Shown: in pieces, positions 19,856 through 25,726 of the stretch
Layout: each line of letters opens with the position of its first letter
Numbering within the stretch: position 1 is the first letter of the stretch
Source of the DNA: an uncultured Lactobacillus sp.
Lineage (GTDB): Bacteria > Bacillota > Bacilli > Lactobacillales > Lactobacillaceae
DNA: 39,298 nucleotides
Reading direction: 5' to 3'
NCBI GenBank assembly: GCA_947641735.1
Contig: CANRQR010000010.1
Location: 1 to 39,298 of the forward strand
Notes under the pieces: generated by a model
Told to the model about the DNA's origin: nothing
The model's database searches: none
The model's input: only the letters and a program-made list of their open reading frames with translations
Made by a program: the position numbers and the translations under genes

Positions 19856-21091
19856 ATGAATTATGGAGAAAAATCACCTGCACTTTGGGATGCAATTAAA
19901 AGTGAAGAGAAAAGACAAGAAGATACAATTGAATTAATTGCATCAGAAAATATTGTTTCCGATGCTGTCCGAGAAGCACAAGGATCTGTTCTAACAAATA
20001 AATATGCAGAAGGATATCCCGGGAAAAGATACTATGGTGGCTGTCAATATATTGATAAGGTAGAACAATTGGCAATTGACTATGCCAAAAAATTATTTAA
20101 TGCAGAATATGCCAATGTTCAGCCTCATTCTGGTTCACAGGCAAACATGACAGTTTATAATGCTTTGTTAAAGCCAGGAGATACGATTTTAGGAATGGGT
20201 ATGGATGCTGGTGGGCATCTTACTCATGGATCTAAGGTTAACTTTTCAGGGAAAATTTTTAATTCTATTAGTTATGACCTAAATCCTGAAACTGAAGAAT
20301 TGGATTTTGAGCGAATTAGACAGATTGCTATAGAGAAGAAGCCAAAATTAATTATTGCTGGCGCTTCCGCTTATAGCAGAATTATTGATTGGCAGAAGTT
20401 TCGTGATATTGCGGATGAAGTTGGTGCCTATCTAATGGTTGATATGGCGCATATTGCAGGCTTAGTTGCAACTGGAGCATATCCGAGCCCAATTCCTATA
20501 GCTGACGTTGTTACAACAACCACACATAAAACTTTACGTGGTCCGCGTGGAGGGATGATTTTATCTAACAATAAAGAATTAGGGAAGAAAATTGATTCTG
20601 CTCTCTTTCCAGGAACGCAAGGTGGACCACTAGAGCATGTTATTGCTGCAAAGGCTCAAGCTTTTTCTGAAGATTTGCAGCCGGAATTTACCCAATACAT
20701 TAATCAAGTAATTAAAAATTCGAAAGCCATGGCTGAAGAATTTAAAAATAGCAAAAAGATTCGCGTGGTTTCAGGTGGAACTGATAACCACTTGATGATT
20801 ATGGATATTACCAATACTGGTGTAACGGGAAAAGATGCCCAAAATTTACTGGACTCAGTAAATATTACAACTAACAAAGAGTCTATTCCTGGTGATAAGC
20901 GAAGCCCATTTATTACTAGTGGATTAAGAATTGGAACACCCGCAATAACTAGCCGAGGCTTTAAGGAATTGGATGCTAAAGAAGTGGCTAAAATAATTAT
21001 TGAAGTTTTGGATAATCCTGAAGATGCAGAAGTATTGGCTCAGGCAAAAGAAAGAGTTAAGGATTTAGTTCAGAAATATCCTATCAAATAA
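19856..21091 (+). CDS. glyA: serine hydroxymethyltransferase
   Basis: The 411-residue PLP enzyme interconverts serine and glycine while loading tetrahydrofolate with a one-carbon unit. The PLP lysine is Lys225 in [14 protein letters not shown]. Other conserved elements are [41 protein letters not shown] and [11 protein letters not shown]. The length is normal for the bacterial enzyme. A GGGAGG site lies eight to ten bases before the ATG. No terminator separates its stop codon from the tryptophan-transporter leader promoter seven bases later, so glyA transcripts probably end at the tandem terminators of that leader (21277-21366). Confidence 0.97.
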
Positions 21092-21097
21092 AAGCTA

Positions 21098-21126
21098 TTG
21101 ACAGAAAAATATAAGCCAATTACAAT
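21098..21126 (+). promoter_or_regulatory. promoter of the trpXYZ-like operon
   Basis: Consensus -35 TTGACA (21098-21103), exactly 17 bp spacer, TACAAT (21121-21126). Transcription would begin near 21133, giving a leader of about 245 nt before the first transporter gene. Confidence 0.8.
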
Positions 21127-21156
21127 ATAATTAAATTTTTTAAGGAGTAGTTAATT

Positions 21157-21207
21157 ATGAATACACAAGCTAAGTTTATGAAAATTAATCGTTGGCAAGG
21201 CCAGTAA
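21157..21207 (+). CDS. 16-residue leader peptide with one Trp codon
   Basis: The sixteen codons read MNTQAKFMKINRWQGQ and then TAA. An ideal AAGGAG ribosome site (21142-21147) lies nine bases before the ATG, and a consensus promoter sits just upstream, so translation is very likely. Trp13 (codon 21193-21195) is four codons before the stop codon. The frame precedes two tandem intrinsic terminators and a tryptophan-importer-type operon, so it is best read as a regulatory leader peptide. Control could be by ribosome stalling at the Trp codon or by nascent-peptide arrest near the stop codon. No T-box motif is present. Confidence 0.75.
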   Translation: MNTQAKFMKINRWQGQ

Positions 21208-21276
21208 ATCAGGTTGTTAAGCAAGATGCAACCTGAAAGATTCAGATTGTATCTGTGCTGGCTGTGTATTTATTGT

Positions 21277-21314
21277 GGTCTGCATGGAGTAACATGCAGA
21301 CCCTTTTTCTTTTT
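21277..21314 (+). terminator. leader terminator 1
   Basis: Perfect 10-bp GC-rich stem (21277-21286 with 21293-21302), 6-nt loop GAGTAA, then CTTTTTCTTTTT. It probably also ends glyA transcripts. Confidence 0.85.
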
Positions 21315-21327
21315 GTGATAAAAAAGT

Positions 21328-21366
21328 AACAGGAATCTGCATGTGAAAATAGATTCCTGTTTTTTT
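21328..21366 (+). terminator. leader terminator 2
   Basis: Perfect 11-bp stem (21328-21338 with 21351-21361), 12-nt loop, and a run of T residues ending just before the GGAG ribosome site of the next gene. Confidence 0.8.
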
Positions 21367-21377
21367 GGAGAAAAATT

Positions 21378-22370
21378 ATGAAAAGAATGTATGGATTAAT
21401 TGTAATTTTAGTAGCTTTTCTAACCATAGCTTTTTTTGGAAAAAATAAACAAAAAGAAGAAAATAATAAAATTCCCCGAGTTGGTGTCTTAACTCTTATG
21501 CGTCACCCGGCTCTTGATGAGATATATCGCGGCTTTCGAGATGAGCTGAAAGAAGAGGGCTACGTAAATGGAAAAAATATCAAAATTGACTATCAAAATG
21601 CAAATAATGATCAGAGTAATTTACGTACGATGGCAACAAAGCTAACTGATGAGGAATCAAGAGTGTTAGTTGGAATTACCACTCCAGCAGCGCAAGCATT
21701 AGCAAATACAACGAATAAAATTCCAATAATTTTAGGTGCTGTAACAAGTCCAAAAACTAGTGAGCTAGTAAAAAATGAAAGACATCCCGAAAAAAATATT
21801 ACTGGTGTATCAGATGCTGCTCCAATTAGGCAACAATTAGATTTAATTAAGGAATTTTTGCCTAATTTAAAAACTTTAGGAGTAATTTATACTTCTAGTG
21901 ATTCTTCTGCAGTTAGCGGCTTTCATGAGATTGAGCGTGAATGTAAAAAGAGAGAAATAAATTTAAAATCTTTTTCAATTGCAAATAGTAATGACCTTAA
22001 TCAAGTTTCAGAGCAGATGTTTAGTCAGGTAGATGCCGTCATTGTACCAACTGATAATACAATTGCTGGAGCGATGGAAACATTAGTTAAAAATGGTAAT
22101 GCTGCTAAAAAGCCAATTTTCCCTGCTGCAGCAACTATGGTAAAACAAGGTGGCCTTGCAACTTATAGTGTTAATCAATATGAGTTAGGAAAAATGACTG
22201 GAAAGATGACTATTGAAATTTTAAAGGGTAAAAAAGTTAGTTCTTTACCAGTTGAGAGAGTGAAAAAGGGAGAACCAATTGTTAATTTAAAAGAAGCCAG
22301 AAAATTAAATCTTCAAGTACCTCAACGATTTTTAGAAGAATGTCAGAAAAAAGGAGTTGTATATAGATGA
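21378..22370 (+). CDS. trpX: tryptophan-type ABC transporter substrate-binding protein
   Basis: The 330-residue protein is a solute-binding protein of the ABC_sub_bind (PF04392-like) family, whose streptococcal members are TrpX. The binding domain starts at PRVGVLTLMRHPALDEIYRGF and contains VGITTPAAQALANTTNKIPIILGAVTSP and VDAVIVPTDNTIAGAMETLV. The N-terminus has a hydrophobic helix (about 5-20) but no lipobox cysteine, so it is held by an uncleaved anchor or a non-lipid signal rather than by lipidation. Its stop codon overlaps the permease start (ATGA). The tryptophan assignment is supported by family and by the Trp-containing leader peptide, but the ligand is inferred. Confidence 0.82.
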   Translation: MKRMYGLIVILVAFLTIAFFGKNKQKEENNKIPRVGVLTLMRHPALDEIYRGFRDELKEEGYVNGKNIKIDYQNANNDQSNLRTMATKLTDEESRVLVGITTPAAQALANTTNKIPIILGAVTSPKTSELVKNERHPEKNITGVSDAAPIRQQLDLIKEFLPNLKTLGVIYTSSDSSAVSGFHEIERECKKREINLKSFSIANSNDLNQVSEQMFSQVDAVIVPTDNTIAGAMETLVKNGNAAKKPIFPAAATMVKQGGLATYSVNQYELGKMTGKMTIEILKGKKVSSLPVERVKKGEPIVNLKEARKLNLQVPQRFLEECQKKGVVYR

Positions 22371-23266
22371 ACTTGATCGTATCTGCTATTGGCCAGGGGT
22401 TGCTATGGGCTTTGCTTGGCTTAGGATTATATTTGACATTTAGAATTTTGAATTTTGCCGATATGACAGTGGAAGGAACCTTCCCATTGGGTGCAGCTGT
22501 TGCAGTAGCTAATATTTCACAGGGAATGTCTCCATACTTAGCTACTTTCTTAGCCCTTTTAGCTGGAATGGCAGCAGGTTTAGTAACGGGATTATTGTAT
22601 ACAAAAGGAAAAATTCCAATTCTACTTGCTGGTATTTTAACAATGACGGCAATTTATTCTATTAATTTAAGAATTATGGGCGGCTCTAATATTTCACTGA
22701 TTGGTAAGAAGACATTACTCAATAATGAATTTTTAGAAAAATTACCTCAATATTTTAACAGTGTTGTTTTAGGTATTGTAGTTGTAATAGTAATTACGGG
22801 AATCTTAATTTTCTTTTTAAATACAGATTTTGGCCAAGCTTTTATTGCTACCGGAGATAACCCGAGCATGGCTAAATCATTAGGAATTCACACAGATTTT
22901 ATGGTGATTATCGGATTAATGTTATCAAATGGAATAGTTGCCTTGTGTGGAGCATTAATTGCGCAAAACAATGGTTATGCCGATATTAATATGGGAATTG
23001 GAACCATTGTTATTGCTTTAGCTTCCATTATTATTGGTGAAGTAGCTTTTGGAGAATTGACCTTAAATCAGCGTTTAGTAGCCGTAACTTTAGGTAGTAT
23101 TATCTATCGGCTGATTTTGTTAGCTGTACTTCAACTTGGATTTTCAGCTAATGACTTAAACTTGATCTCTTCTATTGTGTTGGCCCTCTGTATGATGCTT
23201 CCACAATTAGAAAAAGTCTTACATTTGAAAAAGCCAGTAGAAAGAGGTGTGAAAAAGCATGACTAA
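22367..23266 (+). CDS. trpY: ABC transporter permease, TrpY-like
   Basis: The 299-residue membrane protein has about eight hydrophobic segments of the branched-chain/sugar-type (LivH/RbsC-like) permease fold. It starts with AIGQGLLWALLGLGLYLTFRILNFADMTVEG, in which the LNFADMTVEG part is a family hallmark. It also has the GDNPSMAKSLGIHTDFM coupling loop (about 164-180). It overlaps trpX by four bases and the ATPase gene by eight, so the three are translated as a unit. It forms the membrane channel of the importer with TrpX as substrate receptor. Confidence 0.88.
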   Translation: MNLIVSAIGQGLLWALLGLGLYLTFRILNFADMTVEGTFPLGAAVAVANISQGMSPYLATFLALLAGMAAGLVTGLLYTKGKIPILLAGILTMTAIYSINLRIMGGSNISLIGKKTLLNNEFLEKLPQYFNSVVLGIVVVIVITGILIFFLNTDFGQAFIATGDNPSMAKSLGIHTDFMVIIGLMLSNGIVALCGALIAQNNGYADINMGIGTIVIALASIIIGEVAFGELTLNQRLVAVTLGSIIYRLILLAVLQLGFSANDLNLISSIVLALCMMLPQLEKVLHLKKPVERGVKKHD

Positions 23267-24023
23267 GCCAATTCTAGAATTAAAAGATGTCAAAACAACT
23301 GTTAAAACAGCTGATGGTGAAATTGTTCCAATTTTAAAAGGAATTAATTTAGAAATTAGACCTGGAGATTTTATTACTATAATTGGGACAAATGGAGCGG
23401 GCAAATCTACACTTTTTAATACGATTGCGGGCAGTTTAAAGCCTGATAGTGGTATTCTTCGGCATAATGGGCAAGATATTACGAAAATGAGTGAAGAAAA
23501 GCGGACTCAGTTTATTGGACGAGTTTTTCAAGATCCTAAGATGGGGACTGCTCCGCGAATGACTGTGGCAGAAAATTTATTACTAGCAACAAAACGGGGA
23601 AAGAGAAGATTTTTAAAGATTAGAAGACTTAAGCAAAACTTACCTCGTTTTAAAAAGCTAGCTGCAGTTATGAATAATGGCTTAGAGAATCGTTTAAATA
23701 CATTTGTAGAAGGCTTATCTGGAGGTCAAAGACAAGCTTTGAGCTTTTTGATGGCTACAATAGAAAAGCCGGATATTTTATTATTAGATGAGCATACAGC
23801 AGCTTTAGATCCTCATACTAGTGAAAATCTACTAGCAGTAACTGACAAGCAAATTAAAGAAAATAAATTAACCGCCTTAATGATTACGCATCATATGGAG
23901 GATGCTTTAAAATATGGAAATCGTCTTTTGGTGTTAAAGGATGGTCAAGTTAAAGCGGATATTAGTGAAGAAGAAAAAAAGAATTTAAAAGTAAGTGATC
24001 TTTATAGTTATTTTGAAGATTGA
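23259..24023 (+). CDS. trpZ: ABC transporter ATP-binding protein, TrpZ-like
   Basis: The 254-residue ATPase carries Walker A GTNGAGKST (43-51), a Q-loop in VFQDPKMGTAP (Gln91), signature LSGGQ (153-157), Walker B LLLDE (174-178) with the less common LDEHTAALDP, and the switch His in ITHHMEDAL. The alternative LDEHTAALDP is typical of ATPases that pair with this permease family. It starts inside the permease gene (8-nt overlap). A strong terminator follows the stop codon, so the operon is leader-trpX-trpY-trpZ. Confidence 0.9.
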   Translation: MTKPILELKDVKTTVKTADGEIVPILKGINLEIRPGDFITIIGTNGAGKSTLFNTIAGSLKPDSGILRHNGQDITKMSEEKRTQFIGRVFQDPKMGTAPRMTVAENLLLATKRGKRRFLKIRRLKQNLPRFKKLAAVMNNGLENRLNTFVEGLSGGQRQALSFLMATIEKPDILLLDEHTAALDPHTSENLLAVTDKQIKENKLTALMITHHMEDALKYGNRLLVLKDGQVKADISEEEKKNLKVSDLYSYFED

Positions 24024-24127: not shown

Positions 24128-25726
24128 GTGAATAAGGGACAAAAAATAAGTTTATTTTCAGCAATAATGCTAGCCCTTAATTCGTTGATTGGATCCGGAT
24201 GGCTTTTTGGCTCAGGCTCGGCAGCAAAAATTGCCGGCCCAGCAGCTATCTTATCTTGGATCATCGGTGCAGTTATTATTATTGCAATTGCCTTGACCTA
24301 TGTTGAGCTAGGAACTATGTTTCCTGAAAGTGGGGGAATGAGCAAATATGCTCAATATAGCCACGGTCCCATGCTTGGTTTTATCGCTGCCTGGGCGAAT
24401 TGGATTTCTTTGGTAACCTTGGTGCCAATGGAGGCAGTTGCTGCTGTTCAATACATGAGTTCTTGGCCATGGAAGTGGGCAAACTGGACACATCACTTTA
24501 TGCAAGACGGAAATATAACTACACCTGGGTTATTATTGGTATTTGTGTTCATGATTATTTTTACTTTAATTAACTTCTGGTCAATTAAAATCATGACGCA
24601 CTTTACTAACTTGATTTCTGTTTTTAAAGTACTCTTGCCTACGATAACAATTATTATGCTGTTTGCATCTAGTTTTCATCCTGCTAACTTTGGTCATGAT
24701 GTAAAAACATTTATGCCTTATGGAAGTAGAGCAATCTTTGAAGCAGCTTCTGGTGCTGGTATCATTATGTCTTATGACGCATTTCAGACAATAATTAATA
24801 TTGGTGGTGAGTTAAAGAATCCTCGAAAGAACATTATTCGTGGAGTTTTAATTTCCATGTTTGCGACAGCTGCAATTTATATTCTGCTTCAAGTAGCCTT
24901 TATTGGAGCAGTTGATCCAGGAATGCTTGCTAAAAATTCCTGGCATGGAATTGATTTTGCGTCCCCATTTGCAGATATTGCAATCCTTTTAGGAATTAAT
25001 TGGCTTGTGATTTTACTTTATATGGATGCTTTTGTTTCGCCATTTGGAACTGGAGTAGCTTTTGTCGCAACAGCATCAAGAGCGCTTGCTGCAATGACAT
25101 ATACAAAACACTTACCAGCTTGGTTAGGGAGACTTAACAGACGCTATCTAGTGCCTCGTTTTGCGATGATTGCAGATTTAATTTTGGCAATGATTTTAGT
25201 GAGTGTCTTTAGGAACTGGAATTTACTTGCAACCGTAATTACTTGTGCAACTTTGATTGCTTATTTAACTGGTCCAGTTACTACTATTACTTTGAGAAAA
25301 ATAGCACCAGATTTGGAAAGACCATATAAACCTACCTATATGCGCTGGTTTGCTCCTTTAACTTTTGTATTAACTAGTTTGGCTATTTATTGGACGATGT
25401 GGCCAACAACAATTCAAGTTATTTTAGTTATTCTTGTGGGAATTCCAATTTATTTCTATTATGAAGTTAAATATCAAAAGAAAGATTTTAAATCGCAGTT
25501 TAAGCATGCTGCTTGGCTTTTAGGGTATTTAGTATTTATTTCTATTATGTCTTATTGTGGTAGCGACGGCTTTGGAGGACAAAACTGGATTAAGTATCCT
25601 TGGGATTTTCTTGTAATTGCACTTGTCTCCTTGGTCTTCTATAAAGTCGCAATTGATACAGGACTAGAAAAAGTTGATCCGGCAGCGATAAAAGTAAACG
25701 AAAAAATTAAGCTTAAGAATGACTAG
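24128..25726 (+). CDS. APC-family amino acid permease, aspartate:proton symporter-like
   Basis: The 532-residue transporter has about 12-14 hydrophobic segments. The first helix carries the broken, substrate-binding motif LIGSGWLFGSG (20-30), and helix 6 has EAASGAGIIMSYDAFQTIINIGGELKNP, split by the usual unwound region. The GSGWLF variant and overall length resemble YveA-like aspartate:H+ symporters rather than general APC members. The start is GTG at 24128. An ATG two bases earlier is out of frame and stops at once (ATGTGA). GGAAGAG provides the ribosome site. Monocistronic. Substrate is inferred from resemblance. Confidence 0.82.
   Translation: MNKGQKISLFSAIMLALNSLIGSGWLFGSGSAAKIAGPAAILSWIIGAVIIIAIALTYVELGTMFPESGGMSKYAQYSHGPMLGFIAAWANWISLVTLVPMEAVAAVQYMSSWPWKWANWTHHFMQDGNITTPGLLLVFVFMIIFTLINFWSIKIMTHFTNLISVFKVLLPTITIIMLFASSFHPANFGHDVKTFMPYGSRAIFEAASGAGIIMSYDAFQTIINIGGELKNPRKNIIRGVLISMFATAAIYILLQVAFIGAVDPGMLAKNSWHGIDFASPFADIAILLGINWLVILLYMDAFVSPFGTGVAFVATASRALAAMTYTKHLPAWLGRLNRRYLVPRFAMIADLILAMILVSVFRNWNLLATVITCATLIAYLTGPVTTITLRKIAPDLERPYKPTYMRWFAPLTFVLTSLAIYWTMWPTTIQVILVILVGIPIYFYYEVKYQKKDFKSQFKHAAWLLGYLVFISIMSYCGSDGFGGQNWIKYPWDFLVIALVSLVFYKVAIDTGLEKVDPAAIKVNEKIKLKND

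Follow-up and report, generated by a model that had tools for sequence, protein, structure and literature searches.

The transcription attenuators of the enteric trp and his operons combine leader codons for the regulated amino acid with mutually exclusive helices and a terminator. In TnaC, a leader peptide with a Trp residue senses free tryptophan inside the ribosome. His attenuators have been proposed in the Bacillus cereus group, Peptostreptococcaceae and Erysipelotrichales, according to the accessible parts of PMC9413887, and trpX of Streptococcus suis is placed under a Trp T-box in the accessible parts of PMC9382623. The trpB motif (Rfam RF04312, SRC-39-1) was published in 2024, and the available excerpts of PMC11109978 count over 900 members, from both Firmicutes and Fusobacteria, mostly upstream of an uncharacterised ABC transporter homologous to amino acid transporters. 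The authors class it as a strong candidate for a riboswitch whose ligand they do not know, and they do not rule out a classic attenuator.

Here we describe a leader upstream of trpX in a stretch of 39,298 nt, called the window below, from an uncultured Lactobacillus sp. (GCA_947641735.1, contig CANRQR010000010.1). The enteric trp and his attenuators share with it cognate leader codons, exclusive helices and a terminator, whereas in the window the chain of pairings is longer, both the start and the end of the leader frame contribute to a protective helix, and the terminators are in tandem and linked by a further pairing (F:G). Its family also differs from them in usually having one Trp codon and in having an importer as target. 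The his attenuator is outlined in PMC9413887. The trpX of S. suis belongs to the same importer type, for which the window has a leader without a T-box instead of the T-box given in the excerpts of PMC9382623. Like the trpB motif, the window has a hairpin (C:D) followed by a terminator (T1), an antiterminator in the right arm of the hairpin and an amino-acid ABC importer downstream. Its match to RF04312 (21220-21313, C:D hairpin plus T1) reaches 46.2 bits, below the cut-off of 59; RF04312 itself is treated as a riboswitch candidate in the available text, with the leader frame outside its model.

We consider that transcription of the tryptophan importer operon in the window is very probably controlled by a ribosome-mediated attenuator, with charged tRNA-Trp as the signal that it reads. 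The parts of the element, their conservation and co-variation, and the agreement between leader codon and gene are all seen at the level of sequence. We regard the element as a variant form of ribosome-mediated attenuation that also suggests a function for the orphan motif. It offers a testable role for a published riboswitch candidate and could spare a search for its ligand, and it suggests a mode of tryptophan-uptake control in most of the sampled Lactobacillaceae, where a T-box might be expected. A first-pass annotation, made from the sequence alone, had suggested a regulator type not yet described in lactobacilli. This did not stand for the RNA core, which has been published as RF04312 (PMC11109978), but it still applies to the leader peptide, of which we found no mention in the available parts of that paper; nor did we find a description of a Trp leader peptide before trpX in the accessible portion of the open-access PubMed Central literature.

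The trpX leader and its conservation

The features of the leader and of the importer operon are all on the plus strand, downstream of the end of glyA at 21091. A sigma-70-type promoter (21098-21126; TTGACA-17-TACAAT, 11 of 12 consensus matches) is followed by the ribosome site AAGGAG (21142-21147) and by a frame of 16 codons and a stop, MNTQAKFMKINRWQGQ (21157-21207), whose single Trp codon (21193-21195) is the proposed stall site, judging from the folding of the window and of the family. The minimum free energy of the leader is -77.2 kcal/mol against a shuffle mean of -50.35 kcal/mol (z -5.48). Downstream lie trpX, encoding the substrate-binding protein (21378-22370), and the genes of the importer permease (22367-23266; BPD_transp_2 domain) and ATPase (23259-24023; ABC_tran domain).

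The TrpX protein scores 470 bits against the NCBIfam TrpX equivalog NF041285 (cut-off 390), and its closest relatives are from uncultured Lactobacillus (98%), L. taiwanensis (96%) and L. johnsonii (95%). Promoter, ribosome site, single-Trp frame and tryptophan-type importer had all been read in this way by the first-pass annotation. An amino-acid permease (AA_permease_2, 24128-25726) lies downstream of the importer operon. No trpB gene was found in the window's genome, the assembly of which is 72% complete. The same genome holds a second trpX (L048, G000:C28:2000-4800) with the leader MAVKFEAINRWQFQH; its leader peptide is identical to that of L042, from another genome, and the leader is nearly identical. 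The L048 contig is possibly a contaminant of the assembly (72% complete, 4% contaminated).

A Trp leader precedes trpX in 143 of 146 unique upstream sequences, nearly all of them from Lactobacillaceae; seven duplicates had been removed, and L011-L017 and L061-L082 stand outside the 146 and were examined apart. The count comprises the 139 frames called by script, minus that of L159, which was judged spurious and dropped, plus L006, L086, L084, L129 and L131. The leaders of L129 and L131 were read by eye, and only the frame end of L084 falls within its sequence. Among the 146, no leader frame was seen in L146, L157 or L159. By a hand count of genus labels, the leader-bearing upstreams span 32 of the 34 genus groups sampled. 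All 138 tabulated leaders have a Trp codon, its presence having been a selection criterion. Strict criteria (an ATG, a ribosome site of at least 4, and W followed by Q or R at most eight codons from the stop) were passed by 130 of the 138 real upstreams and by none of 690 dinucleotide shuffles. The ribosome site matches at least four bases in 132 of the 138, and TTGAC lies 25-90 nt upstream of the leader start in 129. The frame usually ends in W-Q-x-R or W-Q-x-Q-(H), sometimes in W-W-R-R and twice in W-W-W with two more residues behind it. Directly downstream of the first Trp codon (21196-21198 in the window) stands CAA in 114 leaders, CAG in 3 and TGG in 21, and no pairing that would explain the near-invariant CAA was seen.

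Two members of the sample stand somewhat apart. The L130 leader seemingly lacks the segments B and C described below and retains the frame end, D and two terminators; it is possibly a minimal version. The one sequence from a record titled Faecalicatena (L007, Faecalicatena absiana) has a WWQFR leader and a trpX 62% identical to that of the window, and may be mislabelled, a contaminant or transferred.

Alternative pairings and ribosome position

Folding of the window indicates a chain of pairings that share their arms. Segment P0 at the start of the frame (21160-21167) pairs with 21263-21270 when the ribosome is absent, segment A at its end (21199-21204) pairs with 21258-21263 in D, and segment B (21209-21216) pairs with 21229-21236 in C. 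Segment C (21224-21236) can pair with either B or D (21247-21263), and D contains the right arm of the C:D hairpin (21247-21254), the partner of A (21258-21263) and the left arm of the antiterminator D:E (21253-21262 with 21278-21287). Terminator T1 with its T-rich tail occupies 21277-21314 (hairpin 21277-21302, -17.9 kcal/mol; arms E 21277-21286 and F 21293-21302), and T2 with its T run occupies 21328-21366 (hairpin 21328-21361, -13.6 kcal/mol). The two consecutive terminators and the B:C helix (-11.5 kcal/mol) had been correctly given by the first-pass annotation. Its competitor for that helix, 21241-21249 with 21229-21237, has a C.A mismatch inside, and the real competitor is the C:D hairpin (21224-21231 with 21247-21254, plus an inner 21233-21237 with 21241-21245; -12.7 kcal/mol). 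The pairings A:D, D:E and P0 were absent from it. A further pairing, F:G, joins 21293-21300 in F to 21336-21343, the end of the T2 5' arm and the start of its loop.

In a swap test, pairing with a segment's own partner was compared with pairing to the partners of other species, among 33 representatives that share under 72% identity, of which 23 to 33 entered each test. The z values were -9.0 for P0 (n 32), -9.0 for A:D (33), -13.2 for B:C (33), -6.1 for C:D (32), -7.1 for D:E (27) and -5.7 for F:G (23), as against -13.2 for the positive control E:F and -0.3 to +3.0 for four unrelated segment pairs. A second segmentation, with 28 representatives, gave -5.5 for D:E and -7.5 for F:G, and -1.5 to +1.3 for five unrelated pairs; its T1-tail classes were left unused, being unreliable where the hairpin search entered the T run. 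The 8-nt complementarity of F:G, noticed in the first reading of the window, thus has a counterpart in relatives beyond chance. Base pairs were also counted in two alignments, the first of 16 and the second of 22 distinct sequences, with 500 shuffles each, and the counts support P0, B:C and C:D. Double-change cells numbered 16 for P0, A:D and B:C together and 5 for C:D in the first alignment, and 10 for A:D and B:C together and 20 for C:D in the second, with none of the 500 shuffles as high. A:D hardly varies in the first alignment; in the second, a single one of its pairs shows double changes. D:E was not above shuffles within the first alignment, A1 (124 of 500 as high), where it retains a U.C mismatch in all 16 sequences, and the measure 'further pair types' was above shuffles for no helix set on either alignment. 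Segment C is shared by B:C and C:D, and both helices co-vary; terminator and antiterminator appear to be mutually exclusive, a relation that the co-variation backs. The first-pass annotation would have been refuted had relatives kept neither the Trp codon nor the alternative pairings; both are conserved, the codon in 143 of 146 upstreams and the pairings by the swap tests.

The window folds into three states. With the ribosome on the Trp codon, B:C and D:E form; with the ribosome on the stop codon, C:D is present and the T1 arm is free of D; and with the ribosome absent, P0, A:D and B:C form together with T1. From these states we infer how the leader would depend on tryptophan or on tRNA charging. 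In the absence of a ribosome, P0 and A:D would enclose the B:C hairpin and D would be occupied, allowing T1 to form and stop transcription. When tryptophan is plentiful, the ribosome at the stop codon would cover A and B, C:D would pair, and T1 would again cause termination. When tryptophan is short, the ribosome would wait at the Trp codon and cover only A, so that B:C could form and D would be freed to pair with the T1 5' arm and prevent T1. The T1 3' arm freed in this way may pair with the front of T2 through F:G, which co-varies in relatives, and the same stall would then open T2. This relay, if real, would mean that one stall controls tandem terminators. Once its 3' arm is complete, T1 outweighs D:E in equilibrium folding of the window, so timing would have to decide.

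For 95 leaders we placed a ribosome on every codon in turn and folded the RNA that it left free as far as the beginning of the T1 3' arm, omitting the RNA upstream of the ribosome. Detection of T1 by its T run missed 43 of the 138 leaders, the window included, so this folding covers 95, and the window was folded separately. With the ribosome edge at +13, upstream pairing of the T1 5' arm was 0.72 when the last Trp codon occupied the A site, 0.465 when the stop codon did and 0.25 without a ribosome, and the Trp value exceeded the stop value by more than 0.05 in 74 leaders and was below it in 7. The corresponding values were 0.70, 0.48 and 0.25 at edge +11, and 0.68, 0.51 and 0.25 at edge +9. 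The maximum falls on the Trp codon only at +13, lying one codon later at +11 and two at +9. Codons upstream of Trp already reach about 0.54 to 0.69, and the sharp contrast is therefore with the stop codon and with the ribosome-free state. When pairing across the ribosome was permitted the pattern was nearly lost (Trp 0.387, stop 0.306, none 0.289, early codons about 0.6). The close relatives L030, L041 and L045 have 0.04-0.14 at the Trp codon, a misfit by energy alone. At 20 RF04312 loci the values were 0.61-0.65 five to seven codons before the stop, 0.34 at the stop and 0.53 without a ribosome. Leaders with Tyr/Phe codons (26 of 27 folded) were flat, with 0.43 at the stop, about 0.50 when the ribosome stood five to seven codons short of it and 0.53 ribosome-free; in another run, with T1 found in 11 of the 27, the value was highest at the stop, and there is no clear peak overall. 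Their swap test gave z -2.3 for F:G and -1.2 for D:E, from 24 leaders too alike for a strong test.

Leader codons at RF04312 loci

No Rfam family was reached in a scan of the window at curated cut-offs. The sub-threshold RF04312 match is full-length (E 1.5e-5) and the sole one that a strictly filtered search, which loses weak matches, gave in the window's genome. Of 19 other trpX loci, 6 match RF04312 with E no higher than 0.05, and none of these reaches the cut-off. The motif begins 12 nt past the end of the leader frame in the window. In general the frame ends 3-26 nt upstream of the motif start, outside the RF04312 model, and since the model starts downstream of the frame, the frame may have gone unnoted.

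We surveyed RF04312 in two classes, that of the window (299 genomes) and that of a Clostridia relative (341 genomes), using strict filters that lose weak matches; the survey yielded 17 + 16 = 33 places. Upstream of 28 of them stands a leader whose codons are Trp, His or Tyr/Phe (the window and its near relatives L212 and L215 included; the leaders of L211, L214 and L216 were identified by script). These comprise 11 with Trp codons before trpX, 9 with His codons before a hisZ-like gene, 6 with Tyr/Phe codons before transporters and 2 with Trp codons and no gene. All nine places above the RF04312 cut-off have Trp codons, and seven of them precede a gene that passes the NCBIfam TrpX model, the other two being L204 and L208; below the cut-off, L212, L213, L215 and L219 have Trp codons and trpX. 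His codons stand before a PF13393 hisZ/hisS-like gene in nine of nine cases (L211, L221, L222, L223, L224, L227, L230, L231 and L232). Phe/Tyr codons stand before sodium symporters (L220, L226 and L229), an ABC permease (L235) and the TrpX-like proteins of L214 and L216, whose 384 and 269 bits, respectively, fall short of the TrpX cut-off of 390. The codon agrees with the amino acid of the gene in 20 of 20 cases in which the latter is known, the six Tyr/Phe transporters being outside this count, and leader codons that follow the gene are what ribosome-mediated attenuation predicts. The RF04312 places L217, L225, L228, L233 and L234 (37.5-43.5 bits) lack a leader of this kind and have the look of matches by chance, though some places with a leader score equally low. 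In L204 and L208, a Trp leader, RF04312 and a terminator (at about 1501-1613) are followed by no same-strand frame of at least 80 codons that would begin in the next 700 nt; these two may be orphan attenuators or, possibly, trans-acting RNAs.

The codon rule would predict the substrates of unassigned importers from their leader codons, for example Tyr/Phe for the Lactobacillus TrpX paralogues. These proteins fall below the family cut-off, and 30 of 31 of their upstreams have Tyr/Phe leaders such as LNNRYYFSYFR. The Tyr/Phe leaders are matched by Rfam RF02863, Enterococcus sRNA 2410 (28 matches, 13 above cut-off, in 19 of the 20 loci L061-L080, scanned out of 22), which differs from them in being filed as an sRNA; as it covers leaders of TrpX paralogues, the sRNA label may be wrong. 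In the window's genome RF02863 had no match, in a search whose controls also gave none. The His versions resemble the His attenuators of PMC9413887, which in its accessible parts are likewise Firmicutes leaders with His codons, a terminator and an antiterminator, and the two sets may overlap; no link to the trpB motif was found in those parts.

On this evidence RF04312 would be a codon-programmable attenuator and not a ligand-binding riboswitch, with the window as a weak-scoring relative. We lean, by a little, towards a wider reading that joins RF04312 and RF02863 in a single superfamily of codon-programmable attenuators in Firmicutes. As an alternative to the T-box, its members would be re-aimed to Trp, Tyr/Phe or His by changes in a few leader codons, and a relay of D:E and then F:G would let one stalled ribosome open two successive terminators.

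Competing explanations and the T-box question

According to the trpB motif proposal, the fold upstream of T1 would be a metabolite-binding riboswitch that binds tryptophan or an amino-acid-related ligand and sets the terminator. The C:D hairpin is indeed conserved upstream of a terminator, and SRC-39-1 is a strong candidate in the published account (PMC11109978, available parts). We nevertheless find this very improbable, given a core made of mutually exclusive helices, a Trp, His or Tyr/Phe leader frame at 28 of 33 RF04312 places and at all nine above cut-off, and Trp or His codons that agree with the gene in all 20 cases with a known amino acid; a riboswitch does not predict such codon changes. 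Nascent-peptide arrest, raised in the first-pass annotation, would have the leader peptide sense free tryptophan in the ribosome in the manner of TnaC. A single W among the final ten residues, as in 113 of 138 leaders, would suit it, as would a Leu-Asn-Asn-Arg that recurs at residues -4 to -1 before Trp and Tyr/Phe codons alike with differing Leu codons, and this motif may have a role at the level of the peptide. The other residues before Trp vary, however (W-1 to W-8; at W-1 R 12, S 8, G 3 and others in 33 representatives), leaders with WW and WWW occur, and a Trp-specific peptide would not predict the His and Tyr/Phe versions. Expression induced by tryptophan would also be of the wrong sign for an importer, and arrest seems to us very improbable.

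If termination in the leader served mainly to release a trans-acting sRNA, and attenuation were secondary, this would account for the filing of RF02863, which matches the Tyr/Phe version, as an Enterococcus sRNA, and for the complete Trp leaders of L204 and L208 that lack a nearby downstream frame. Yet a matching or compatible gene follows at 26 of the 28 leader-bearing RF04312 places, and trpX follows the leader in 143 of 146 upstreams, which leaves this explanation with slight probability. The least probable, to the point of being negligible, is a chance frame before ordinary tandem terminators, for instance those of glyA, although a plus-strand terminator scan found none between the end of glyA and the promoter. 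A glyA-like sequence is present in only 6 of the 138 leader loci, although 135 of the 138 extend at least 900 nt ahead of trpX; it is thus trpX with which the element travels, and glyA terminators with a chance frame were rejected on this ground; shuffles, moreover, gave no such frame in 690, and the pairings co-vary. Attenuation by a ribosome that reads the Trp codon is the reading we prefer.

The first-pass annotation had seen no T-box, and none (RF00230) was found at cut-off in the window or in the 20 trpX loci scanned; T-box control of the window's trpX was rejected for want of a covariance-model match at cut-off. A chance-like T-box string occurs in L116, which gave no Rfam match, and in L123, and L088 has a T-box of 63.9 bits, below cut-off and on the strand opposite to its trpX. 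Among 20 trpX upstreams from other families of Lactobacillales, RF04312 is matched at its cut-off in 5 and a T-box in 3, the latter confined to a single family; 14 have a Trp leader frame (13 directly, and L185 through being the same locus as L206) and 3 have neither leader nor T-box. The T-box family also includes G406 (L203), in which a Trp leader with RF04312 takes the place of the T-box.
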